A stretch of DNA of 50,508 nucleotides, from positions 1 to 50,508 of IMG/VR virus record IMGVR_UViG_3300013117_000343; one strand, written 5' to 3'. Below, one piece after another: positions 258-17,304 of this stretch. Numbering within the stretch: the stretch's first letter is position 1; each line of letters starts with the position of its first letter. Source of the stretch: a virus. The translations under genes and the position numbers were made by a program. The notes under the pieces are model-generated. The model searched no databases, was not told the origin of the DNA, and saw nothing but the letters and a program-made list of their open reading frames with translations.

Positions 258-1446
258 AGGCTCTACGTGTTATCTTATACTTTCTCCCTCTACCATCTGC
301 AATTTCCTCTATTTCTCCACAATCTAATAGTGTTCTTATTATTATACTCATCTCTTGGCTGTCAGCCAGCCGCCAACACTTCCTAAGAAGTTCAGCATGA
401 TTGATTGGTCCACTCCTCTTAATCATTGAGTGCACTCTCTCTATCACCCCACCAATCTTAGTAGAAGTCACGCTATCAAGTATAGACATTAAATTATTCT
501 CATTAGACGCCATTAGGTTGAGGGCTTCATAAATATGTTCCTCTGATATTAGGAGGTCAGAACCCTCAGATACTGATAAAAGTGCTGATACTTTAAACAT
601 AGTATCATGCTTCCTCCCGTAATATCCATCTAGTTTCTCATCCCTAGTTACACTCATCTCCGTTTCATACCAGTCTATAGCTGCCTGCTTAGCTTTCTTG
701 GTAAATTTTACAGGTCCTCTAAGCTCAGACCTTATTATGTTTAGGTCATAAGTTAAGTCTTTCCTCATTTCCACTTCATCTGGGCTCTCCTCTATCTCCC
801 TCCCATCTGATGCCTCTTCATTAAATAGGTGGTCTTTTGAAGGTCTCTCTTGGTAGACGAAAACTACTCGGGATGTGAAGCCTCCTCCTACTGCTACGTC
901 TGGGATACTTTCGGCTAAGCTTGATTTTGTTGTTGCGGCTAGCATTCCTAAAGTGGGGTTTTTGAGGATTTCCTTACCACCACCTTTTGTATGGTATATC
1001 CACTCGCCTTTGGGACTGTCATAGAGGTCGTTTAGGAGGGAGGTAATGCCCCTATTTATTGCATCCTTACTTAGTAAAACCTGAAGCTCAGTTGAGAACA
1101 GCATACCATAGCAGGAGGTTCCAGTGGTTGACTTTAGGAGAGCACCTATAAGTGCTTCAGGGGTTACTTTTTGGGCAAACACTGTGGGGGGTTTAACCAT
1201 TTGTTCTATCATACCTCTGCCAATATTGAGAGCAGACGACTTCCTGCACTTAGCACTCTCGGCTACCAGTATTACAAACAAGTTGGGATATATTGTATAT
1301 TTAATTCTCGGTATCCAAACTGACCTTCCTATTGCAGCGCTTAATACTGTGAGCCCAGTCCACTGATGAAACGCTTTGGGACTTTCTTGATTGTAAGTGT
1401 AGTCTAAGTAAGTTTCTAACCATGGCTTCTTACAATGTCTTAACAT
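247..1446 (-). CDS. DUF3987-like phage primase/helicase ATPase
   Basis: A 399-residue protein with the layout of phage DUF3987 proteins, P-loop ATPases linked to the replisome. After an N-terminal region (residues 20-50, FHQWTGLTVLSAAIG) comes a Walker A-like loop at 62-71 (AESAKCRKSS), where the glycine normally before the catalytic Lys is Arg. TELQVLL (about 119-125) and NDLYDSP (139-145) follow, and the C-terminal 70 residues resemble a winged helix. The gene abuts the DNA polymerase gene upstream (1446) and is last in the leftward operon. Replicative helicase or helicase loader is inferred from family and context; the altered P-loop leaves activity uncertain. Confidence 0.65.
   Translation of the reverse strand: MLRHCKKPWLETYLDYTYNQESPKAFHQWTGLTVLSAAIGRSVWIPRIKYTIYPNLFVILVAESAKCRKSSALNIGRGMIEQMVKPPTVFAQKVTPEALIGALLKSTTGTSCYGMLFSTELQVLLSKDAINRGITSLLNDLYDSPKGEWIYHTKGGGKEILKNPTLGMLAATTKSSLAESIPDVAVGGGFTSRVVFVYQERPSKDHLFNEEASDGREIEESPDEVEMRKDLTYDLNIIRSELRGPVKFTKKAKQAAIDWYETEMSVTRDEKLDGYYGRKHDTMFKVSALLSVSEGSDLLISEEHIYEALNLMASNENNLMSILDSVTSTKIGGVIERVHSMIKRSGPINHAELLRKCWRLADSQEMSIIIRTLLDCGEIEEIADGRGRKYKITRRASTT
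252..295. terminator. Hairpin at the convergent junction of the two operons
   Basis: TGGTAGAGG (252-260) pairs perfectly with CCTCTACCA (287-295), 9 bp with a 26-nt loop; a smaller hairpin GTAGA/TCTAC (254-266) nests at its base. It sits where rightward and leftward transcripts collide, so a bidirectional terminator is plausible, although neither side has a clear T-run and the right arm lies inside the helicase-like gene. Confidence 0.35.
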
Positions 1447-3734
1447 TATAGTTTGAGCTCTTTCATATCACTCCAAACTTTTCCTGTCTTTATTTCTACT
1501 GGGATGACTAAGGCTTCCCCCACTGATACATCAAATGGGAATTCAAAGTAGTGTTTGATGAACCTAAATATATGCATTGGGTCAGTCTCGTCTGGGACTT
1601 GCATAAGGACGCTATCATGGACTTGCAACATCATCTCCCAGTCTTGAGGGAGGGCATTATACGCATTGACCAAGCCCATGTTTAAAACATCACTTACAGT
1701 TGACTGAGGGACATATGCGATAGCATCCCTAAGTAAGTCTTGGCTCCACCTCCCAAAGAACATCCTTTTTCTATTAAAGGGGGTTACTAACACTCGGGAC
1801 TTTCTTAGCATATCCTCTACTTGTTTGTGCCAAAGCTTAATACGAGGGTAATGGGCATAATACTGATTAAGAAGTTCTCTAGCACGAACTTCCGATTGTC
1901 CAATGAGTCTTGAGAAAGTCCTCGCTCCAATTCCATAATTAGACGCATGGATAAGTGTTTTAGCAAGTTGTCTTTCGTCTGAGGTGACATTGTTAAGTGT
2001 CTTCCCAAATATGTCCGAAGCGTTTTTCTTGTGGATATCGCCTCCTTGCTCAAATAGAATTTGTAAACGGGTTTCTTTTGCCAGAAACGCCACCACTCTC
2101 GCCTCTGCCTGGGATAAATCAGCGTTGACGAATGTTTTCCCAGGGTCTGACACAAATATACTTCGAACCAACCCCTTTCTATCAATGTTTTGAAGATTGG
2201 TGCCACTTCCGTAGACACTTTTTCTACTGGATAACCTGCCAGTTTCTGTTCCTGTGATGACATAATTACACCTTATCCTTCCATCGGGATCTAGAGGAGC
2301 CCTAATATAGTTGGAGAGCATATGCCTAACCTTCCTAATATCCAGGATTAGGTCAAATACTGGGTTTGGGAATTTTTTAGATAGAGCTTGGATTGCCTCT
2401 TCGTCGGCTGTGAGAGACTTGGTCTTCCTGTTTCGTTGAGGAGGGAGGCCCATCTCGGTATAGAGAAACTCTACCATTTGCTTGGAGCTTGAAGGGTTGA
2501 GGGGATGACCCACAGCCTTCTCTAACTTTACCTCCATATCAGTAAGGTCCTTGGAGAGGTTCTCATCTATTTGAGCCCTCTTCTTCAGGTCTATTTTAAC
2601 ACCTGTTCTCTGCATACCGATTAGAGGTTTTATTAGTTTGTGTGAGTGCTTCCTGTAAAAGTCCCAAGTCTTGAACTCTTTAAGTTCCTTTACTATTTCC
2701 ATTGCACATTCCCAGGTAACTACAGTATCGAGACAGTTGTATTTCCAGAGGACGTCTGGCCCACCAGTCCCTGGCATATCTTTGTAGAAAGGGCGTGTGG
2801 TATAAATAGAACAGAGGAAGTCCAAACCCTTACGAAGTTCGGGGTATATACAGTGAAAGCCTACCATTGTGTCTAGCCAAAGGTTTGGGACTTCTACTCC
2901 CCATTTGTCTCTTAACCAAATCATATCATACTGAGCGTTCTGAGCAATAAACTTAATAGTTGGAGATTGGAAGAGTTTTCTAACTCTACCTATTATTGCT
3001 ATCTCCTCTTCACTAGTCCACCAAGAGTTACCAGAGTAGAAGATAGGGATGCAGATAGAGTTCTCTTTAGACCAGCCTAAACCTAGACAGAGGATTTGGT
3101 TTTCACTGTCAGTCTCAATATCAAAGGCTATGTATTTCTCCCTCTCAAGTGAGGCCAGAGTCTTCATAATGGTTTCAAATGAGGGATTTATTATGAAGAT
3201 ATCTTTGTAATCAGCGGGAGGGTAGGGAGTTTTAACCTCTTCTCTAATACGGTTAAAGTCCATTACTACTATGGGCTTAAACTCATACTGACGCATTACA
3301 GAGTCTGGGTGGATGGTGGGAATTACCTTTATCCCATTGAAGTTTAGAATACTCCCTCTACGTTTAATAACTGTTTTGAGACCTGTGAGTGCGTAGAGGG
3401 GTTCGTTGCCTAGAGCTACTATTACGTTTGGTCTATACTTTAGGATTTCTTCTTGGAGTCTTTTATGAGATTGAGTAAGATATTCTGTTGGCTTCCATCT
3501 TTTCTTGTCTGTGTAATATACACTAAAATCATTTTTGGGAGGTCTCTCTTGAACTACATTATCTATATAGCACTCACTTCTCTTAATACCAGTTTCACTT
3601 AGTATCTGGTCTAATACTCTTCCTGCACCACCAACAAATGGGCGTCCTATCTTTTCTTCTTGTGCTCCTGGGCACTCACCTACTAACCATAGTTTTGCAC
3701 TTTTATCACCCTCTCCATACACCTTCTTCTCCAT
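1446..3734 (-). CDS. polA: Family A DNA polymerase with N-terminal uracil-DNA-glycosylase-like domain
   Basis: The 762-residue replicative polymerase has three parts. Residues 1-170 match family 4-type uracil-DNA glycosylases (GECPGAQEEKIGRPFVGG at 19-36, NVVQERPPKN at 59-68, VALGN at 106-110, HPD at 142-144), but the usual iron-sulfur cysteines are absent. Residues 195-345 are a 3'-5' exonuclease with DIE (205-207), NAQYD (266-270) and YNCLD (332-336). The polymerase domain carries motif A with Asp539, motif B with Arg588, Lys592, Tyr600 and Gly601, and motif C His706-Asp707. The residue matching E. coli Pol I Phe762 is His596. The ATG has GGGAGG upstream. The HNH gene end overlaps its start by 29 bases. 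Confidence 0.95.
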   Translation of the reverse strand: MEKKVYGEGDKSAKLWLVGECPGAQEEKIGRPFVGGAGRVLDQILSETGIKRSECYIDNVVQERPPKNDFSVYYTDKKRWKPTEYLTQSHKRLQEEILKYRPNVIVALGNEPLYALTGLKTVIKRRGSILNFNGIKVIPTIHPDSVMRQYEFKPIVVMDFNRIREEVKTPYPPADYKDIFIINPSFETIMKTLASLEREKYIAFDIETDSENQILCLGLGWSKENSICIPIFYSGNSWWTSEEEIAIIGRVRKLFQSPTIKFIAQNAQYDMIWLRDKWGVEVPNLWLDTMVGFHCIYPELRKGLDFLCSIYTTRPFYKDMPGTGGPDVLWKYNCLDTVVTWECAMEIVKELKEFKTWDFYRKHSHKLIKPLIGMQRTGVKIDLKKRAQIDENLSKDLTDMEVKLEKAVGHPLNPSSSKQMVEFLYTEMGLPPQRNRKTKSLTADEEAIQALSKKFPNPVFDLILDIRKVRHMLSNYIRAPLDPDGRIRCNYVITGTETGRLSSRKSVYGSGTNLQNIDRKGLVRSIFVSDPGKTFVNADLSQAEARVVAFLAKETRLQILFEQGGDIHKKNASDIFGKTLNNVTSDERQLAKTLIHASNYGIGARTFSRLIGQSEVRARELLNQYYAHYPRIKLWHKQVEDMLRKSRVLVTPFNRKRMFFGRWSQDLLRDAIAYVPQSTVSDVLNMGLVNAYNALPQDWEMMLQVHDSVLMQVPDETDPMHIFRFIKHYFEFPFDVSVGEALVIPVEIKTGKVWSDMKELKL

Positions 3735-8696: not shown

Positions 8697-9548
8697 TCAA
8701 TTCACCCCCTTCCCCTTAATCTCAACTGAACAGTGCCCCCACTCTTGAAACCTATTAAACTTCACCTTTACATCACATGGGTTGCACACCCCATATTCTT
8801 CACATCTTCTAAACCCTCTAATTAACTTAACCTTATCATTTAATATGTGACCCATTGGGTTAATATCATTGTAGAGGTCATGATGACATCTAAAAATAAA
8901 ACCAGAGGGGTTTATCAAGAGCTCAGAAGGCTTACACTTAACAGTTAGTTTTCTAAGTTTAGTGCAAGCATTTTGATATTTGTAAGTGTTCTTCTCCCAA
9001 CCAGTGCTTAAAAACCTTTTAGTTCTAAAGTCTATGCCCCTCTCCTTACACATCCTAATCATAGACCTGTTAGTGTTCATAAACATAATATTATCAAATC
9101 CCCAGATGCCCACCTTATACCCCATCTTTTGAAGGGTGTGAACCTTGCTAACCATCTCAGCTTGATTGGTTTTTTTGTGTAGGCTAAACCTAATACTGGC
9201 ATATTTAGCTCTTCTTTTAAATACGTAAGGGTCAACTCTACTTACGAACTCATCCAGGTTAAACATACCATTAGTTACTAGGTCTAACCCTATCCCCTTA
9301 CGATATAAACCATCTACTATGGTATAAAATTGTGGGTGGATAGTCGGCTCTCCTCCTTGGAGAGTAAGAGGTAGGTCTGCTCTGTTCTGTATGCGAGCCA
9401 AACCATCTATCCACCCCGTAGCTCCTAACTCCTCCGTCTTAACGAGCCTGTCGAACCTATTGATACAGTAGGTGCAAGCCATGTTACACCGAAAAGTTAA
9501 GAAAACTCCTACGTAGTTATAAGTTTTGGGTAGTGTGATTGGTCTCAT
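8697..9548 (-). CDS. Radical SAM enzyme with C-terminal cysteine cluster
   Basis: A 283-residue radical SAM protein. CNMACTYC (Cys21, 25, 28) is the CxxxCxxC loop that binds the [4Fe-4S] cluster and S-adenosylmethionine; LQGGEPTIHP is the GGEP motif and DLVTNG a later barrel strand. Further cysteines in the last 70 residues (RCHHDLY, CEEYGVCNPC, HCSVE) suggest an auxiliary SPASM/twitch-like cluster, as in enzymes modifying peptides, sugars or cofactors. The gene overlaps the E1-beta-like gene by 32 bases. Substrate unknown; the neighbourhood suggests a joint pathway with the thiamine-diphosphate pair. Confidence 0.9.
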   Translation of the reverse strand: MRPITLPKTYNYVGVFLTFRCNMACTYCINRFDRLVKTEELGATGWIDGLARIQNRADLPLTLQGGEPTIHPQFYTIVDGLYRKGIGLDLVTNGMFNLDEFVSRVDPYVFKRRAKYASIRFSLHKKTNQAEMVSKVHTLQKMGYKVGIWGFDNIMFMNTNRSMIRMCKERGIDFRTKRFLSTGWEKNTYKYQNACTKLRKLTVKCKPSELLINPSGFIFRCHHDLYNDINPMGHILNDKVKLIRGFRRCEEYGVCNPCDVKVKFNRFQEWGHCSVEIKGKGVN

Positions 9549-10056
9549 ATAAGTCCTTTTCTTCTATTACCAAAGTTGGTAATGGTGAGATAAACATACT
9601 GTTGTAGAGGCTTTGTATTCTCTCAGGTTTTACTAATCGGACGGTTGTGATGTGGGGCTCAAACACGTTGGTGAAGTCATGGTTGTGTTGAAGACCTACA
9701 TCAAATTTGCCATCCTGGGAACCAATTATCGCTCTGATTAGGATTGGAAGAGTGAATTGCCCACCACTCATCTTCGGCACTAGAGCCATGTGGTTTATAA
9801 TTGCATCGGCGGCTATTAGCATGAAGTCCATTCTTTGGAACACCACTATAGGTTTGTAGCCTTGCATCGCAAGACCTATTGCAGCCCCTGCAATTAAGTT
9901 TTCGCAGATGGGCATCTCTAAGCATTTTTTCGCATTTACTTTGGTCATGGTGCCATATATATCTCCTGCGTTTTTTAACCCTTCTCCGAGGAACACGGTC
10001 TTTGGTTGTTCTCCTAGCCATGTCATCACCTCCGTTAGTTCTTGTTTATAGGTCAT
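9517..10056 (-). CDS. Minimal E1-beta-like (PYR-domain) thiamine-diphosphate subunit
   Basis: A 179-residue protein matching the pyrimidine-binding domain of 2-oxoacid dehydrogenase E1-beta/transketolase proteins: FLGEGLKNAGDIYG, the Glu segment PICENLIAGAAIGLAMQG and SGGQFTLPILIRA. Ordinary E1-beta subunits are about 320 residues and add a C-terminal transketolase domain, which is missing; the protein ends soon after VRLVKP. The E1-alpha-like partner is two small genes upstream. Together they could form one active site for decarboxylation or C2 transfer. No E2 or E3 gene is present, so a classical dehydrogenase complex is unlikely. Ribosome binding site AAAGGAG. Confidence 0.85.
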   Translation of the reverse strand: MTYKQELTEVMTWLGEQPKTVFLGEGLKNAGDIYGTMTKVNAKKCLEMPICENLIAGAAIGLAMQGYKPIVVFQRMDFMLIAADAIINHMALVPKMSGGQFTLPILIRAIIGSQDGKFDVGLQHNHDFTNVFEPHITTVRLVKPERIQSLYNSMFISPLPTLVIEEKDLYETNHTTQNL

Positions 10057-10199
10057 ATTATCTCCTTTATTTTCTCTTTTTTATATTCATAGCCGCACAA
10101 AGGGCATTTTTCGTGTTGAATGCCAAACTCTGCATGGCAGTTACCACATGTTACTTCAACTTTTACAATCCCTAATCTAATTAGGTCTTTAAGTTTCAT
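10053..10199 (-). CDS. Zinc-ribbon protein, 48 aa
   Basis: Begins MKLKDLIRLG and contains CGNCHAEFG and CPLCGYEY, a four-cysteine zinc ribbon, with a Lys-rich tail. Its TGA overlaps the ATG of the E1-beta-like gene (ATGA), indicating coupled translation. No clear ribosome binding site of its own. It may be an adaptor of the neighbouring enzyme pair. Confidence 0.65.
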   Translation of the reverse strand: MKLKDLIRLGIVKVEVTCGNCHAEFGIQHEKCPLCGYEYKKEKIKEII

Positions 10200-10350
10200 T
10201 AGTTTGTTTTTGCCTTATGCTGTCAAGCACCTCCCATGTAGTGGGTTTATCAAGCCGCTTTAGAAATCGTATTTACCTTTCCAAAGGATAAAACCCTTGG
10301 TGCCATAGAAATAACAATTTCCATAAGAAACCATATTCCTTTACTTTCAT
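10189..10350 (-). pseudogene. Small gene split by one in-frame TAA
   Basis: From ATG 10350, behind AAAGGAGG, the frame encodes 25 residues beginning MKVKEYGFLW and ending FYPLER, meets TAA at 10273-10275, then stays open for 26 more codons (RFLKRLDKPTTWEVLDS and on) to TAA at 10189-10191. Both halves look protein-like and share one frame, so this is either a nonsense-broken gene or a 25-residue peptide. Other genes here end normally with TAA, so reassignment of that codon is unlikely. Confidence 0.4.
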
Positions 10351-10377
10351 AACTACCTCCTTTTTCTAACTACAATT

Positions 10378-10572
10378 TTAACACCCCATCCCTTCTACTG
10401 TTGCCTGTTTTATTATATCTTCTTGGGGGACACTTACATAGTGATGTTTACAAATCCAGACCTTCTTCCCATTGTGTTCTACCACCTGAAAATCTTTGGT
10501 AATGGGTTTCTTGCAGATAGGGCACTGACCCTTATCTACTCTACTAGATACAATGTTATTACATTGAGACAT
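10378..10572 (-). CDS. Small zinc-binding protein, 64 aa
   Basis: Contains GQCPICKKPI followed by WICKHHYV, a C-x2-C / C-x2-H zinc site. The ATG at 10572 is chosen because GGGGGTAGGTG precedes it; a GTG two codons earlier is possible. It overlaps the end of the E1-alpha-like gene and lies between the alpha and beta halves. Function unknown. Confidence 0.6.
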   Translation of the reverse strand: MSQCNNIVSSRVDKGQCPICKKPITKDFQVVEHNGKKVWICKHHYVSVPQEDIIKQATVEGMGC

Positions 10573-11197
10573 GTGCACCTACCCCCACGTGAGGCCACCT
10601 TCTCACATAGTTATACCTTATTATATTCCTCGCAACCATTGGTGTAAAGTTATGCCATCTCTCTTCTTTGGTGCTCTCCACCGCAAGGTCATTATCCTCT
10701 ATTATGAAGGTGAGAGGTAGACTGCGGGAGTTGCCAAACCTCACTGCCTCCATAAAATGCCCAGTGTCTTCTCCACCATCTCCCACGAAGCACCAGACAT
10801 GACCTTTAGACCTCTTCTTTTTTAATCCAAGGGCTAGACCTACAGCAATAGCACACCCTCCACCCACTATCGCTGAGGTTAGGAAGTTAATTGACTTATC
10901 GTAGATGTGCATGCTCCTTCCCTCTCCTTTGCAGATGCCACTCTTCCTACCTAAGATTTCATCATGGAGCTTTTGGGCATCTCCTCCTTTTAAGAGATAG
11001 TGGTAATGGTTTCTATGAGAACTAACTACCCAATCTTTAGGTTTAATTGAACTAAAGAGTGAGATTAGCTGCTCCTCATTTCCTCCTGATAAGTGGATGG
11101 GGCAGGAAATCTTACCTTGTTTAAATAAAGTCTTAATGTTCTCCTCAAACCCTATGAGCTCTTCCTTTGTCCATCTCTTATTAGGTATACTCTTCAT
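10559..11197 (-). CDS. Minimal E1-alpha-like (PP-domain) thiamine-diphosphate subunit
   Basis: A 212-residue protein aligned by motif with E1-alpha subunits of 2-oxoacid dehydrogenases: SSHRNHYHYLLKGGD, ILGRKSGICKGEGRSMH, a Gly-Ala helix GGGCAIAVGLALGL, and the metal/thiamine-diphosphate loop GDGGEDTGHFMEAVRF reaching the metal-ligand Asn in EDNDLAVES. Typical E1-alpha chains run 320-400 residues; this one stops shortly after the cofactor loop. With the E1-beta-like partner it forms a stripped-down TPP enzyme. The ATG overlaps the TGA of the upstream membrane-peptide gene. Capsule and lipopolysaccharide loci also carry E1-like pairs, a hint rather than proof of role. Confidence 0.87.
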   Translation of the reverse strand: MKSIPNKRWTKEELIGFEENIKTLFKQGKISCPIHLSGGNEEQLISLFSSIKPKDWVVSSHRNHYHYLLKGGDAQKLHDEILGRKSGICKGEGRSMHIYDKSINFLTSAIVGGGCAIAVGLALGLKKKRSKGHVWCFVGDGGEDTGHFMEAVRFGNSRSLPLTFIIEDNDLAVESTKEERWHNFTPMVARNIIRYNYVRRWPHVGVGAHVSM

Positions 11198-11409
11198 CTT
11201 AATATCTTTGATACCTCCATCATCGCCTCTATTTTACCGTTTATGAGCAATGGGTGATAAATACCCTGTTGACTTTTAATTACATCAAGGTATTTATTCA
11301 TGCTCTTTAATATCCTTATGCTCTCCCTTATCTTACCTATTTCAAACCAGACCTTCGCTGTTATTATAAGACATAAAATGTGGAATAAAGTAACTATCAA
11401 AGTCCCCAT
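11194..11409 (-). CDS. Single-pass membrane protein, 71 aa
   Basis: An N-terminal membrane helix (about residues 3-22, LIVTLFHILCLIITAKVW) is followed by a charged helical tail (EIGKIRESIRILKSMNKYLD). It overlaps the B12-type radical SAM gene by 13 bases and the E1-alpha-like gene by 4. It could tether the cassette to the membrane; inference only. Confidence 0.6.
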   Translation of the reverse strand: MGTLIVTLFHILCLIITAKVWFEIGKIRESIRILKSMNKYLDVIKSQQGIYHPLLINGKIEAMMEVSKILR

Positions 11410-12755
11410 ACTCTCCTCCTTGTCTCTAATCTAATCCGATTTAGCTCTTCCAGGGAAACTCCCATCATCCCTGCTATCTTTTTAGCCTTAAGAGTTGAGC
11501 TAAAGTTAATCCTATCCCACTCATAGGCTCTAATCATAGTTATCTCCTTAGAGGTGAACTCTGAGGTCTCTATTTGACCCTCTCTCCAGCTATCTCCCTC
11601 TTTTAGGCACTTCCCTTTGACGCACATGTCCCACAGGCGAGTATGTTTAAGAGGGGTGGCTGTAAAGACCTTAGTATAATCGGCGTCTATATACTCGGCT
11701 ACTTTAAGGGTCTTTCTAATCTCAGTCCAGGTCTCCCCTGGGAAACCTATGATGAAATTAGCCGCCACAAAGATACCATACTCTTTAGCATCTTGTATAA
11801 CACATTTGGCGTCTTCTAAGTCTATCCTTTTACCTATGATTTCCCTTTGAACTCTCCTGCTTCCACTCTCAATGGCTACATCGATATACTTACAGCCGCT
11901 CTTAGCCATAAGTCCAATCATCTCATCATCCATTTTGATTACTGAGGTAGCTATCATAGACCAAGGCATAGTGAGACCTCTCCTAATCATCTCTTGGAAA
12001 AGACTCTTAGCCCTCTTCTCATTATATAGTAGGTTATCGTCGTCAAAAATAAGAGACTTAATCTTATAATCCTTCTTAAGCCAGCTAATCTCTTCAATAA
12101 CATTTTCTACACTCCTTCCTCTCCAGCGTTTGCCCATTATCTCCTCTACTTGACAGAAACAACACCCATACGGACAGCCCCTAGACGTTATAATGCGTCC
12201 ATAAGGATACGAACACGGAGCGTCTACACTTTTCCGTATGGGTGGTTTATTTATATATGATTTTAAATCAATTAAGTCGTATGCGGGTAGGGGGAGTTCA
12301 TTTAACTTTTGGATTGGGAGGGCTTGGTGAATACCATGCCAACTATAGCCAAGGGTTATTTGGTTCATTAGGTATTCTCCCTCTCCCTTGACTATTATAT
12401 CTATCTCTGGAGCTTTTATTAAGATGTCAGCGTTCATACTGGGAGATACTCCTCCAACTACTACTTGTATTTTTTTAGATACAGCTTTAACTGCTTTGGC
12501 GGCTCTAAGAGTGGCTCCAAGTTGAGAGTCTATCATAGTAGTTATACCTACCATGTCTGGTTTCTCTTTCTCTACACGTTTTGCAAATACTGATGTTTCT
12601 AAGTCCTCTTTATAAGCATCTATTATATTTACCATAGTCCCATTCTTTCTAACTTTGGCGGCAAGGAGGCATAGATTGTAAGGTATGTAATCCCAGAGGA
12701 AATCCTTGTTTGTCTCACTCCATCTAAAGTTGGGGACTACAAGGGTTAGGTTCAC
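11397..12755 (-). CDS. Radical SAM enzyme with cobalamin-binding-like N-terminal domain
   Basis: A 452-residue protein of the B12-binding radical SAM class. Residues 1-140 form the Rossmann-like domain (MVGITTMIDSQLG, VVVGGVSPSMNADILI, IIVKGEGEYL); the classical DxHxxG histidine is not seen, so cobalamin binding is uncertain. Cys194, Cys198 and Cys201 (CPYGCCFC) form the cluster loop, followed by LIFDDDNLLYN and IDVAIESGS, usual for this class. Members methylate, cyclise or rearrange unactivated carbons in lipids, antibiotics and cofactors. GTG start. Context: between a 181-aa unknown and the E1-like genes. Confidence 0.9.
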   Translation of the reverse strand: MNLTLVVPNFRWSETNKDFLWDYIPYNLCLLAAKVRKNGTMVNIIDAYKEDLETSVFAKRVEKEKPDMVGITTMIDSQLGATLRAAKAVKAVSKKIQVVVGGVSPSMNADILIKAPEIDIIVKGEGEYLMNQITLGYSWHGIHQALPIQKLNELPLPAYDLIDLKSYINKPPIRKSVDAPCSYPYGRIITSRGCPYGCCFCQVEEIMGKRWRGRSVENVIEEISWLKKDYKIKSLIFDDDNLLYNEKRAKSLFQEMIRRGLTMPWSMIATSVIKMDDEMIGLMAKSGCKYIDVAIESGSRRVQREIIGKRIDLEDAKCVIQDAKEYGIFVAANFIIGFPGETWTEIRKTLKVAEYIDADYTKVFTATPLKHTRLWDMCVKGKCLKEGDSWREGQIETSEFTSKEITMIRAYEWDRINFSSTLKAKKIAGMMGVSLEELNRIRLETRRRVWGL

Positions 12756-13297
12756 AAGTCCTCCCTATTATCCCTCATCATGTTTAATGTCTCTTTGTTA
12801 AGTATCCTAAATGAGTGTAATTGCCTTCTAAACTCAAACTCTACCATCTCCTCCTCATAGAATACATACTCTATTACGGCCTTTCTGCCTGCTATTGAGA
12901 TAGGTAGACATACTCTTATATGACGAGAATGATTATGTATTGTCATTTCTTCTGGGTAATACTTAATAAAGTTAAATATCCTGCCCCTGATATAATTAGC
13001 AAGCCTTGTCCTAATCTTCTTCTGGCTCCATTTGTAATTAAGGCGTTCTTGTAACCAATTTCCTATAGCGTGTATTTCTTCTCTCCTTTTAGGAGCATTC
13101 TTAATAAACCTGTGTATAGTATTGTTAATCCTCCTATCAGGATTGTTTTGGGACACCAGCTGGGGTCTTAATCCCGTGGTGAGTGGAAGTGTCATTATAA
13201 GTAACATTAAACATACCCTATCCATATCCACAGTCAGGTTCCCCCTCACTATCCTCAACTGCCCACTCACATATGTGTGGAATTTGACTCTCACCAC
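12752..13297 (-). CDS. Hypothetical 181-aa protein
   Basis: No family recognised. From the GTG at 13297 the first residues are beta-like, then a hydrophobic segment (MDRVCLMLLIMTLPLTTG) that could be a signal or membrane helix if translation starts at ATG 13225. The rest is basic and helical (KRREEIHAIGNWLQERLNYKW) with a beta-rich end. The start is uncertain: neither candidate has a clear ribosome binding site. A 27-codon frame from ATG 13302 (MSGESQIPHICEWAVEDSEG) ends over ATG 13225, so coupled initiation there is possible. It overlaps the next gene by 4 bases. Confidence 0.5.
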   Translation of the reverse strand: MVRVKFHTYVSGQLRIVRGNLTVDMDRVCLMLLIMTLPLTTGLRPQLVSQNNPDRRINNTIHRFIKNAPKRREEIHAIGNWLQERLNYKWSQKKIRTRLANYIRGRIFNFIKYYPEEMTIHNHSRHIRVCLPISIAGRKAVIEYVFYEEEMVEFEFRRQLHSFRILNKETLNMMRDNREDL

Positions 13298-13326
13298 TCA
13301 TAATACACTTTGTGAAAGGGCAAAGT

Positions 13327-13704
13327 TTACTGCGACTGATGCCTAATTTTAACCTCTCTAAACCCCTTCTTAGTAGTCCTGTTAATCTCATTTTTATACT
13401 CCACTCTCTTCCTGTTAAGGTTTCTAATAGCTATTGCCCTTCTCCCTATCTCAGAGAGAGTAAACTTCTTCTCGCCGCCTTTCCTAATTTCATTCTCCAG
13501 GTTCCAAATGTCTATATTTGCCATAGTAAGTCTAATAGTTGCTGTTATTAAGTGAGAATTTATTCCTGAAGCATTGAGTCCCTTGATTATACTTTGGTAT
13601 TCAGGATATGCTGCTTCCTCACCAAAATATATTTTACGAATGAGAATTGAAAGCTTGTCTATTACATCACCAAGAGAGTATTGAGGTAGTTTAGACTTTT
13701 TCAC
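13327..13704 (-). CDS. DUF6165-like small protein
   Basis: A 125-residue protein. SLGDVIDKLSILIRKIYFG, MANIDIWNLENEIRKG and IGRRAIAIRNLNRKRVEYK resemble the short helical DUF6165 family (pattern DKLSILEIK, LWxIEDxIR, TNDxRAxxKxxIN), found near glycosyltransferase and lipopolysaccharide genes. The function of that family is unknown. Starts at GTG 13704 behind AAGGA. Its presence next to radical SAM and E1-like genes strengthens a link of the cassette with sugar or envelope chemistry. Family assignment is from memory of the pattern only. Confidence 0.55.
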   Translation of the reverse strand: MKKSKLPQYSLGDVIDKLSILIRKIYFGEEAAYPEYQSIIKGLNASGINSHLITATIRLTMANIDIWNLENEIRKGGEKKFTLSEIGRRAIAIRNLNRKRVEYKNEINRTTKKGFREVKIRHQSQ

Positions 13705-13895
13705 AATTTTTATCCTTTCTATGAATTGTCATGTGCTCACTAAATGTGACAACTGCACTACTACCGCAGTATACGTATTTTGTTATTTGACAGTATACTC
13801 TGTTTATATGCCTTTTTTTATGGGTGTATTCAACGTATGGTCTACCATTTTTATATTTTACTTTGTTAATATTTATAGGTGTTCCATTATAACTC
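13691..13895 (-). other. Open frame without a standard start, cysteine/histidine rich
   Basis: Just after the TGA at 13896-13898 a frame of 67 codons stays open to TAA at 13691-13693, with protein-like content (INKVKYKNGRPYVEYTHKKR, then YCQITKYVYC and SEHMTIHRKDKNC, a possible zinc finger). It contains no ATG until late, and the preceding CxxC gene ends in another frame at 13887. It could be the second half of that gene joined by a frameshift, a decayed gene, or use a rare start codon. Confidence 0.35.
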
Positions 13896-14090
13896 CATAA
13901 CTTTCAATAATATACTAAAACATCTCTTGCAAACGTGCATCTTCTTAACAAATTCTATTCTATTAGGGGGAGATAATAGAATACCTCCAAACTCTTCAAG
14001 TCTTTCTTTACAAAAATAGCAGATAGGTTTTATGCCTATTCCCTCTTTTCTCCTTCTTCTCCTAGCATCGCTATACTTATGCTTCCCCAT
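13887..14090 (-). CDS. Small zinc-binding basic protein, 67 aa
   Basis: Starts MGKHKYSDARRRRRKEG at ATG 14090, behind GGGAGGA. Two cysteine pairs, CYFCKERL and CKRCFSI, are spaced as in an HNH-like or zinc-ribbon fold, but no catalytic His-Asn is visible in this frame. The following startless frame also carries Cys and His residues, so the intact ancestral protein may have been longer. Confidence 0.6.
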   Translation of the reverse strand: MGKHKYSDARRRRRKEGIGIKPICYFCKERLEEFGGILLSPPNRIEFVKKMHVCKRCFSILLKVMEL

Positions 14091-14154
14091 AAATCCTCCC
14101 ATCATTTATCATCTTACACACTTCCATTAGGTCTTTGTCTACTTTCTCTCTCAT
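14077..14154 (-). CDS. Micro-protein, 25 aa
   Basis: Begins MREKVDKDLMEV, helical and charged. Its ATG overlaps the end of a copy of the dispersed palindrome and its 3' end overlaps the next start, the arrangement seen at 26751-26772. No ribosome binding site; the palindrome might act in initiation. Reality uncertain. Confidence 0.4.
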   Translation of the reverse strand: MREKVDKDLMEVCKMINDGRIYGEA

Positions 14155-14175
14155 AATTTCAATTTTTGAACTTAC
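14153..14175 (-). promoter_or_regulatory. Dispersed 23-bp palindrome, copy 2
   Basis: Read leftward, GTAAGTTCAA, 3 nt, TTGAAATTAT. It begins at the stop codon of the 31-aa membrane peptide gene and ends at the ATG of the 25-aa gene, so it fills the whole junction. Confidence 0.75.
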
Positions 14176-14270
14176 TACTTCCAAAGTAATGCACACACCA
14201 CATAAGCAATCCCATTAACTATTAGTGTTATCCCTATCAGCATCATCGTTGGGTTTTTAACCTCTATCAT
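14175..14270 (-). CDS. Membrane micro-protein, 31 aa
   Basis: Begins MIEVKNPTMM followed by one membrane helix (LIGITLIVNGIAYVVCALLW). The ATG overlaps the upstream TGA (ATGA) and AAAAGGAGG lies upstream. Function unknown. Confidence 0.6.
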   Translation of the reverse strand: MIEVKNPTMMLIGITLIVNGIAYVVCALLWK

Positions 14271-14365
14271 TGTTTGCCCCCGCCTCCTTTTCCTTCTGCC
14301 ATTAAATTATCCATTATTCTTAACATTTCCTTTTCACTTACAACATCCCCTAATTTATATGTCAT
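14267..14365 (-). CDS. Micro-protein, 32 aa
   Basis: Begins MTYKLGDVVSEKEML, helical, with a Gly-rich end. GAAGGAGAGG precedes the ATG, and its stop is coupled to the next membrane peptide. Function unknown. Confidence 0.55.
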   Translation of the reverse strand: MTYKLGDVVSEKEMLRIMDNLMAEGKGGGGKQ

Positions 14366-14395
14366 ATTAGTCCTCTCCTTCCCCTAAATCTTCTT

Positions 14396-15079
14396 TTACC
14401 CTTCATTCTCTTTTATTACATCCTCGATTTTTAAATCATCACCCCATTGGGATATATAAAATAAATCTTTACAATCTTTCACCATGCCAAAAACTATCGG
14501 GTCGGGAACATTTTGCACATGTGCAACAACAAACTCCGAAAAACAATCTAATTTTTTTGCTTTAACTACATTGTCCAGCACATATTCAGGGGGTGTTGTG
14601 TCCCATTCTCTTAATGGTGTTAACTTTACCTCCTTTTGCTTGTTAACCCTTTCGGATACTTTACCACCATAATGCAATAAACAGATAAAGCCAGCTAGGC
14701 AGACTCCAGAAATAATGGACGGCCACAATAAGACATTGTTTTCTTTGACCAAGTAAGACAAGCTAGTAATTGACACAAATAAACTTAATAAAGCACCCAA
14801 AAAAGTTAGGTTAGCTAATAGCTGTAGTCTCTTACGGTTGTTTAAACTTTTCTCAAAATCGTCCAAATTTTTAGGTGTTACATATTTATAATGTTCATAT
14901 GCTACTGCTCTTCCCTTTGATACAACAACCTTAGATTTAATGCATTCTAACACTTTAACTAGCCCACACATTTCCAGCTTCGCTAAATAATCTTCAATGT
15001 GTGGATTAAGCTCAACTGCTTCTCTTTTTTTAGCTTTCTCAGCTAACTTAAGTAATGCCCATTTGTCTCCCATTTTCAT
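14396..15079 (-). CDS. Two-pass membrane protein, 227 aa
   Basis: Residues 1-80 are cytoplasmic-like and basic, two hydrophobic helices follow (about 87-108 and 116-137), and a soluble C-terminal domain of ~80 residues ends acidic. The N-terminal part (HIEDYLAKLEMCGLVKVLEC) resembles a winged helix, so a membrane-bound sensor or regulator is conceivable. Starts behind AAGGAGGAGAG. No family recognised. Confidence 0.65.
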   Translation of the reverse strand: MKMGDKWALLKLAEKAKKREAVELNPHIEDYLAKLEMCGLVKVLECIKSKVVVSKGRAVAYEHYKYVTPKNLDDFEKSLNNRKRLQLLANLTFLGALLSLFVSITSLSYLVKENNVLLWPSIISGVCLAGFICLLHYGGKVSERVNKQKEVKLTPLREWDTTPPEYVLDNVVKAKKLDCFSEFVVAHVQNVPDPIVFGMVKDCKDLFYISQWGDDLKIEDVIKENEG

Positions 15080-15146
15080 CTCTCCTCCTTATCTATTAAC
15101 CCCTCCTCAATATCACAGGTTCTTTAACTAAACATTCATTACAAAA

Positions 15147-15254
15147 CTAAGCCTTAACTTTTTTATTAGGCGCAAAATCAAATACAGGCCTCCACTTACC
15201 ATTACCCTTAGTAATCTCAAAGTATTTATTGCAATGATAGCAGTTGTTACTCAT
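15147..15254 (-). CDS. Cysteine-pair micro-protein, 35 aa
   Basis: Begins MSNNCYHCNKYFEITKGNGK at ATG 15254, behind AGAGGAG; one CxxC pair and a basic tail. It lies right after the intein-bearing radical SAM gene and may be co-expressed with it. Confidence 0.5.
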   Translation of the reverse strand: MSNNCYHCNKYFEITKGNGKWRPVFDFAPNKKVKA

Positions 15255-15270
15255 TGGCTTCTCCTCTATT

Positions 15271-17304
15271 CTAAATAAAGTTAATATGCTCAGGTGGATT
15301 AAGGTAGTTCCATATGAATGCATTTGTGAAATCATGGCGGCACGAGCCAGCACACATAGTATGCACATCAAAATCTTCCCTCATATACTTAATTATATGC
15401 CAATACCTATCACTATCAATAATCTCTTTTAGAGTATTTTTCTTAAGGTCACCATAACAATAATCACTATTATTGAATAGATAACCACAAGGGTAGCATT
15501 TAGAATTCCCACTAATTTGAAAAATAAGGGGACAATCTACACATCTATCATAAGGTCTCCTACCCTTACTCGCTATCATCCCCCATTTAGGGACAATTTT
15601 AGTCTTATCATTAGATAGCTTCTGAGCTTGTTTCAACACCTCTAACACTCTCTTATTATCATACCAGTTTAAATTAAAGTGGGACATACCCTTACACCCT
15701 GGGTCAGAGAACTGTTTAATTACGAAATAGTCAACTCCCTCTCTTACTGCCCACTTAGCCTCTGGTATTACTTGCTCAAGACAGTCAGGTATAAACACCA
15801 TCTGAAGTCCAATGGTGCACTTATACCCTTTAGTTTTCTTAATATAGATTGCAGAACGGATAGCGGCCTGCACACGCTCCCACTGAGGAACACCATGAAT
15901 GGTTTTATATCCTCCTGAGTCAACGGCAGATAGGTTGAAGCGAAGCCATGTGCAGGTGGAGAGAAGAATTCTTAACTTAGTCTCATCTAAAAAGATACCA
16001 TTTGTTGCAAATCCTATGTCTAACCCCCACTTCTTACCCTCAATACAAGCATCATAGACGGCTGGGTTAAGTGTAGGCTCCCCATCTCCCGTGAGGGTAA
16101 GAGACTTAACTCCCAAGTATGGGGCATCTATAAAAAGTTTAATGAGTATATCTCTTGGTATAACATCCATTGACATCTTTTGATGTATACCATAACAATT
16201 GTGAACACAAAGTCCTTTTGCAATAAATGTATGACTTTCGGTTGTTAGGTCATACACTTCAGTAACTCTTCCGATTGACACAAAATTAACTCTTAATACG
16301 CCCTCAATTTTACAATCAAAAGCTTTTTCAAACTTTCTTGTTATAGCGGGAGTTGTTACTTGCATAAATCTAATACGATTTTCATAACCTTTTGTAACTC
16401 TTACCACTTTTACACTTTTACCATAATCCTCTAACGTGTTTGGAATGTGGAGCTTGTTCAATGACAATGTTATCATATGCAATACAGAAGTGTCGCTATT
16501 AGATATTCTCAAATTGTTTCCGCTTATACTTCCTTCAGCGTCAAAAATACCTCCAAGGTATCCTCTGTAGAAGCTTTGACTTTGCCCCAACAATAAGTCT
16601 TTGTAACTTATAAATTTTTTAAGAAGATGTGTGTGCTCTTTTCCTATTACATAAAGCTTATGCTTACTTCTTTTATAAGAAACAATGAAACCTATATCAA
16701 TTAGGTATTGATAGGCTCTATCAAGGGCTTCTATGTCAATCATGTCCAATCTCATATGATAGGTAGAGTATCTAGGTGATATATTAAATGTGCCATCACC
16801 ATCTATTATTCCTTTTACATAACCTATTTTGTAATCTCTATCTATTAACTGTATAGGTATTTGCTTTCCTATGTAATGAACATCATTATTATTCGTTAGT
16901 TTTCCAGCATCTTTCCATCCTCTATGTTTGACAAGGACTTGGTGGTCTGGAGTAATCTCTAATGTTTCTCCATTTGTAAAGTGCACTACATTGGTGATAG
17001 CCATTCTTTTGTGGATATCTGTAACAGTGGTATATTTTAATCTTCTTTGCTTATGTATATTTCCAATCTCATCAAAACCTATAACAGTGTCCCCAACCTT
17101 GACATCTTTTATTGGCTTTGTGCCCAAAGGTGTGGTTATTGGTGTATCTCCTGTTACACAATAAATACATTTAGCATTACACCTCTTAGTAGCACCAATA
17201 TCTATATGGAGGGGATATATTTTCCAACTGTTTCGGTAGTGGTTATTAACCCTGTCCAGGTGCCATAAGAGTTTACACCCATCAAAAAGGTAGGGGTTAT
17301 CCAC
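15271..17304 (-). CDS. Radical SAM/SPASM enzyme interrupted by an intein
   Basis: A 677-residue precursor: 48 N-terminal host residues, a 321-residue intein (49-369) and 308 C-terminal host residues. Splicing restores RCNAKCIYCYG, the CxxxCxxC loop for the [4Fe-4S]/AdoMet site; the intein sits exactly before the third cysteine. The mature ~356-residue enzyme also has LTGDGEPTLNP, IGFATNG and a C-terminal SPASM-like cysteine set (DRCVDCPL, KCYPCGY, CYGDL, CAGSC), typical of enzymes acting on peptides or carrying auxiliary clusters. Without splicing it should be inactive. GTG start behind GGAGG. Third radical SAM gene of the cassette; substrate unknown. Confidence 0.92.
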   Translation of the reverse strand: MDNPYLFDGCKLLWHLDRVNNHYRNSWKIYPLHIDIGATKRCNAKCIYCVTGDTPITTPLGTKPIKDVKVGDTVIGFDEIGNIHKQRRLKYTTVTDIHKRMAITNVVHFTNGETLEITPDHQVLVKHRGWKDAGKLTNNNDVHYIGKQIPIQLIDRDYKIGYVKGIIDGDGTFNISPRYSTYHMRLDMIDIEALDRAYQYLIDIGFIVSYKRSKHKLYVIGKEHTHLLKKFISYKDLLLGQSQSFYRGYLGGIFDAEGSISGNNLRISNSDTSVLHMITLSLNKLHIPNTLEDYGKSVKVVRVTKGYENRIRFMQVTTPAITRKFEKAFDCKIEGVLRVNFVSIGRVTEVYDLTTESHTFIAKGLCVHNCYGIHQKMSMDVIPRDILIKLFIDAPYLGVKSLTLTGDGEPTLNPAVYDACIEGKKWGLDIGFATNGIFLDETKLRILLSTCTWLRFNLSAVDSGGYKTIHGVPQWERVQAAIRSAIYIKKTKGYKCTIGLQMVFIPDCLEQVIPEAKWAVREGVDYFVIKQFSDPGCKGMSHFNLNWYDNKRVLEVLKQAQKLSNDKTKIVPKWGMIASKGRRPYDRCVDCPLIFQISGNSKCYPCGYLFNNSDYCYGDLKKNTLKEIIDSDRYWHIIKYMREDFDVHTMCAGSCRHDFTNAFIWNYLNPPEHINFI
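16198..17160 (-). mobile_element. Full-size intein with LAGLIDADG homing endonuclease
   Basis: Splice block A starts with Cys1 (CVTGDTPITTPLG, with KVGDTVIGF behind it); block B has NGETLEITPDHQVLV with the conserved His; two LAGLIDADG-type motifs, YVKGIIDGDG (residues 162-171 of the precursor) and YLGGIFDAEG (249-258), form the endonuclease; blocks F/G read VYDLTTESHTFIAKGLCVHN, ending His-Asn, with Cys as the +1 residue. All catalytic positions are present, so splicing and homing look functional. Confidence 0.93.

Follow-up and report, generated by a model that had tools for sequence, protein, structure and literature searches.

The window analysed here, a stretch of 50,508 nucleotides of phage DNA, encodes a radical SAM/SPASM enzyme whose cluster-binding motif is interrupted, directly before the third [4Fe-4S] cysteine, by a full-length class-1 LAGLIDADG intein, very probably self-splicing and persisting as a selfish element. 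The precursor is specified by a single open reading frame on the minus strand (15271-17304; 677 amino acids, GTG start; Pfam annotation), within which the intein extends from Cys1 to Asn321 (16198-17160, minus strand; precursor residues 49-369). Its N-terminal junction reads RCNAKCIY/CVTGDT and its C-terminal junction GLCVHN/CYGIHQ. The N-extein consequently ends in CNAKCIY (17161-17181), which carries the first (codon 17179-17181) and the second (codon 17167-17169) cluster cysteine, the latter being Cys-3, while the C-extein starts with CYG (16189-16197), whose cysteine is both Cys+1 and the third cysteine of the CX3CX2C motif. Once joined, the exteins comprise 356 amino acids and read CNAKCIYCYG across the site. 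A preliminary description had already placed an intein at these positions, with Cys1 following Cys-Ile-Tyr and the third cluster cysteine as the +1 residue; coordinates and junctions alike proved to be exact.

Intein-free homologues, which the preliminary description had named as the check on the insertion point, exist among phages at 70% (L153), 61% (L154), 50% (L155 and L156) and 42% (L157) identity, and they fix this point exactly because they read straight through a contiguous CX3CX2C motif. In total, an alignment search with the extein recovered 71 relatives from viral contigs, 66 of which lack an intein and five of which carry one; since several of them are near-identical contigs, these tallies count contigs and not events. 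One of the five (L152) represents the same virus as the window, with a single base difference over 12,031 compared. The other four are members of the same enzyme family from phages, and three of these (L203, L205, L209) possess an intein directly before the third cysteine, at the same site as in the window. The inteins of these four proteins measure 168-341 amino acids, against 321 in the window, and a Pfam scan of L203, L209 and L217 gave no match to LAGLIDADG_3. In the fourth protein (L217:2287-3846), the intein is situated ahead of the second cluster cysteine, the single case that we saw of an insertion at a cluster cysteine other than the third; a scan of 222 loci with a pattern stricter than necessary found none at the first. 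Among the relatives found, no pair of alleles with and without the intein was closer than 70% protein identity, and at the DNA level 56 of 72 bases agree between the intein-free site of L153 and the joined site of the window. With the closest empty allele being only 70% identical, recent homing is not demonstrated.

The block names and residue roles used in the following are those generally established for inteins. Block A is represented by CVTGDT (17143-17160), block B by TPDH (16942-16953; intein residues 70-73), block F by VYDLTTESH (16231-16257; residues 302-310) and the end of block G by CVHN with its penultimate His and terminal Asn (16198-16209; TIGR01443), all on the minus strand. Cys1, the TxxH signature of block B and a terminal His-Asn followed by Cys (VHN/C) are all as expected of a class-1 intein, in which position 1 is Cys or Ser and the terminal Asn precedes Cys, Ser or Thr. 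Between blocks B and F lie two LAGLIDADG motifs, GIIDGDG (16792-16812; residues 117-123) and GIFDAEG (16531-16551; residues 204-210), both matched by PF14528 and each with its acidic residue intact, as is to be expected of a LAGLIDADG endonuclease. The two endonuclease motifs, the block B histidine and the terminal His-Asn that had been reported beforehand are thus all present. The GC content of the intein (0.337) is lower than that of the extein (0.389) and of the window (0.409), which fits a later arrival in the gene. The cysteine three residues ahead of the terminal Asn in CVHN (16198-16209) sets this intein apart from most of its same-site relatives, which read VSHN, and it possibly provides a further thiol near the active site.

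Profile searches are in keeping with these readings. Pfam recognizes LAGLIDADG_3 (PF14528; E 2.3e-11, 44.2 bits against a cut-off of 22.5) and, together with the CX3CX2C motif, a Radical_SAM domain (PF04055; E 9.9e-9, 36 bits against 29.5); the SPASM domain (PF13186) is a marginal match (E 2.5e-4, 21.7 bits against 21.5) that recurs in L153, the relative at 70% identity (23.3 bits). Intein_splicing (PF14890; E 6.7e-8) stays under its curated cut-off (32.9 versus 35.8 bits), as does, slightly, the NCBIfam intein_Nterm model (E 6.9e-5), while intein_Cterm (TIGR01443; E 1.1e-5) surpasses its own. The top NCBIfam match, the intein-containing Rv2578c family radical SAM model, has an E value of 9.5e-21 and covers residues 33-375, mainly the intein, at a score far below its cut-off. 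We also modelled the intein from an alignment of 30 same-site inteins, consisting of that of the window and 29 chosen from 108 matches with both junctions. The model (mean pLDDT 87.4) shares the Hint fold of the splicing domain with the Ssp DnaB and Mtu RecA inteins, which reside in other host genes (Z 20.8-19), and the endonuclease fold with I-DmoI, likewise from a different host gene (Z 16.9); a sequence search of the PDB was consistent with these structural matches.

Collectively, the sequence suggests that the window intein is probably functional. From its intact residues we infer splicing by the standard Cys1/Asn/Cys+1 route, whereby excision would restore the CX3CX2C motif and yield a working 356-residue enzyme. 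Homing, which we infer as well, would direct the intein into a coding site that can neither drift nor tolerate imprecise loss, and the element would thereby persist in a selfish manner.

The insertion site is not special to the phage studied here, as inteins occupy it in many radical SAM enzymes. Scanning DNA for CX3CX(Y/F) followed directly by C-x-x-GDT produced 24 viral loci and at least 120 loci in genomes. In the viral set, a script identified both junctions in 12 of 25 matches (11 of the 24 loci), those of L023 were recognized by eye, L008 and L009 hold incomplete inteins, and the remaining 10 loci either match by chance or encode proteins without an intein. Among the genome matches listed, both junctions were readable in 96 of 120; of the others, 18 run off the end of the extracted DNA, one (L072) is apparently frameshifted and five are due to chance. 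Judged by the letters preceding the junction, 93 of the 96 genome cases (from at least 120 loci) are of the Rv2578c/PA0069 type and three of the AmmeMemoRadiSam type, and their hosts are Actinomycetota (80), Pseudomonadota (11) and members of other phyla (5). Profile-based family assignment covered representatives only (nine proteins, later nine with Pfam or four with NCBIfam), and it identified as host proteins Rv2578c/PA0069, AmmeMemoRadiSam (TIGR04337), B12-binding radical SAM proteins, QueE (TIGR03365; L253) and DUF5131 (L249). In the DUF5131 protein (L249:841-2811) the intein precedes the last cysteine of a motif with non-canonical spacing, CX6CX2C. Two inteins at the third-cysteine site start with serine, one in QueE (L253:904-2856) and one in a B12-binding radical SAM protein (L151:6284-8857); the latter was the one locus obtained when viral contigs were scanned for Ser1, a scan restricted to TCN codons. 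Cys1 is hence common at this site without being required. Counting the SPASM family of the window, inteins recur at the cluster motif of radical SAM enzymes in at least six families, and NCBIfam additionally contains a model for an intein-containing Tes radical SAM protein (NF045703). A candidate annotated as radical SAM protein-like (KX853510) was rejected, as it reads as a helicase-like protein of which only the intein resembles that of the window.

NCBIfam moaA models match the window protein, and on account of these matches and of general knowledge we take MoaA to be a radical SAM enzyme. The MoaA protein of Pyrococcus abyssi, an archaeal cellular enzyme in contrast to the phage enzyme studied here, harbors an intein as well, and both Cys-3 and Cys1 are present in it as they are in the window precursor; by its Cys-3, this intein should likewise sit before the third cluster cysteine. 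According to two reports, splicing of the P. abyssi intein is blocked by a disulfide that links Cys-3 to Cys1 (PMC10663303; PMC3922620). One might therefore envisage a selected redox switch, in which oxidation would lock the window precursor in such a disulfide at the first splicing step so that the oxygen-sensitive enzyme would be freed only in reducing cells. The residue arrangement of the precursor, Cys-3 plus Cys1, corresponds to this MoaA-type redox trap, and our model can be superimposed on 3nzm, a redox-trapped DnaE intein with its N-extein and a chain range starting at -4 (Z 16.7, rmsd 2.5, 151 residues). Nevertheless, we consider such a switch unlikely. Cys-3 is the second cluster ligand and thereby unavoidable for any insertion at this place, whatever the intein does; the inteins of L151 and L253 start with Ser, which makes a Cys-3/Cys1 disulfide impossible in them; and relatives of the enzyme at 70-42% identity manage without an intein altogether. 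We found no evidence of selection for a disulfide switch. What stands of the redox-sensitive activation previously suggested is that, by analogy with MoaA, redox-controlled splicing is possible, an idea already published to which our data add no specific support; a redox response, if there is one, would follow incidentally from Cys-3 adjoining Cys1. A search of the control genomes with TIGR02668 revealed no MoaA with an intein, and our literature searches on intein-bearing radical SAM proteins brought up no case other than MoaA; further reports may exist.

It had also been stated that the enzyme cannot bind its cluster until splicing has taken place. This is not established, as the precursor reads C-NAK-C-IY-C1 and intein Cys1 thereby serves as the third cysteine of a full CX3CX2C motif. 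The local cysteine triad should accordingly be present before splicing, although the barrel is interrupted. It is conceivable, if very improbable, that the precursor binds an iron-sulfur cluster or another metal via Cys1, occupying the splicing nucleophile, and that the state of the cluster instead of a disulfide would gate splicing. Were this true, it would extend to the Cys1 inteins at this position in every radical SAM family, whereas Ser1 inteins would be exempt.

Returning to the self-splicing selfish element that we favor, homology alone cannot demonstrate activity, and 17 of the 96 bacterial same-site inteins (from at least 120 loci) are shorter than 200 amino acids, which leaves little room for an endonuclease. 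The window copy might by the same token be a broken intein that has lost both splicing and homing. We regard this as very improbable, given that all catalytic positions checked are intact and the frame is open throughout. The view that the enzyme contains a conserved insertion domain here and no intein, by which the preliminary description would have fallen, is refuted: nothing that we saw speaks for it, the closest of the 71 relatives, at 70, 61, 50 and 42% identity, lack the segment and read straight through the site, and all intein motifs are present.

As to the kinship of the window intein, its same-site relatives can be aligned over its entire length, with a best identity of 33% (E 1e-44 in a small search set). 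This best value pertains to the Rv2578c/PA0069 intein (NF038136), which is inserted at the identical site, before the last cysteine of CX3CX2C, yet in a radical SAM family other than the phage SPASM proteins to which the window enzyme belongs, with members in Actinomycetota, Pseudomonadota and others. When 296 Actinomycetota genomes were searched with the window intein, matches emerged in 33. Thirty of the matches were taken as loci, and five more places, one of which shares a contig stretch with L254, fall outside these. In 27 of the 30, the intein resides at the third-cysteine site of a radical SAM protein, so that the nearest relatives found share their motif with the window intein but sit in another family of enzymes. 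The remaining three are the DUF5131 protein L249, with its intein at the corresponding place, and L257 and L258, where it lies in a gene that resembles, by reading and not by profile, an anaerobic ribonucleotide reductase. A 48-intein tree unites the Rv2578c inteins from bacteria with those from phages (support 98), the AmmeMemoRadiSam inteins with two B12 inteins (99), and the inteins of L203, L209 and L217 with one another (98); the window intein is unplaced. AU tests permit its placement among the other inteins of phage SPASM proteins (p 0.835) as well as among those of the Rv2578c family (p 0.72), and they do not reject one origin for all inteins at the radical SAM site (p 0.083). As these tests settle neither the closest kin nor a single origin, we do not claim separate invasions.

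Taken alone, the window intein is one more active-site intein. The presence of inteins in catalytic motifs is a known rule, as described for, e.g., the P-loops of phage terminases (PMC5050341), and together with its relatives the window intein makes the cluster motif of radical SAM enzymes a counterpart, as a recurrent site of inteins, to the P-loop of ATPases. That inteins recur in this way in several families of radical SAM enzymes is the most useful outcome of our analysis and the part worth following. The natural contrasts it offers, between Cys1 and Ser1, with and without an endonuclease, and with and without an intein, allow claims about redox or metal sensors to be tested directly. At the same time, intein-bearing radical SAM genes may be misread in annotation.

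The interrupted gene belongs to a block on the minus strand of the window (8697-17304) that comprises three radical SAM genes and a TPP-dependent enzyme in split form (Transket_pyr, 9517-10056; E1_dh, 10559-11197). In the other two radical SAM genes (8697-9548 and 11397-12755, the latter B12-binding), CX3CX2C is uninterrupted. Matches to the TPP genes of the window are located near a SPASM-type gene in 12 of 73 phage loci compared (L004, L153, L154, L170, L183, L185, L186, L194, L195, L199, L203 and L206; L152, the window's own virus, was excluded). As a guess, the SPASM enzyme might serve in the modification of a small molecule or of surface sugars. Elsewhere in the window (1446-3734), a single 762-residue frame joins a uracil DNA glycosylase domain (PF03167, 4e-22) at its N-terminus to a DNA polymerase of family A.
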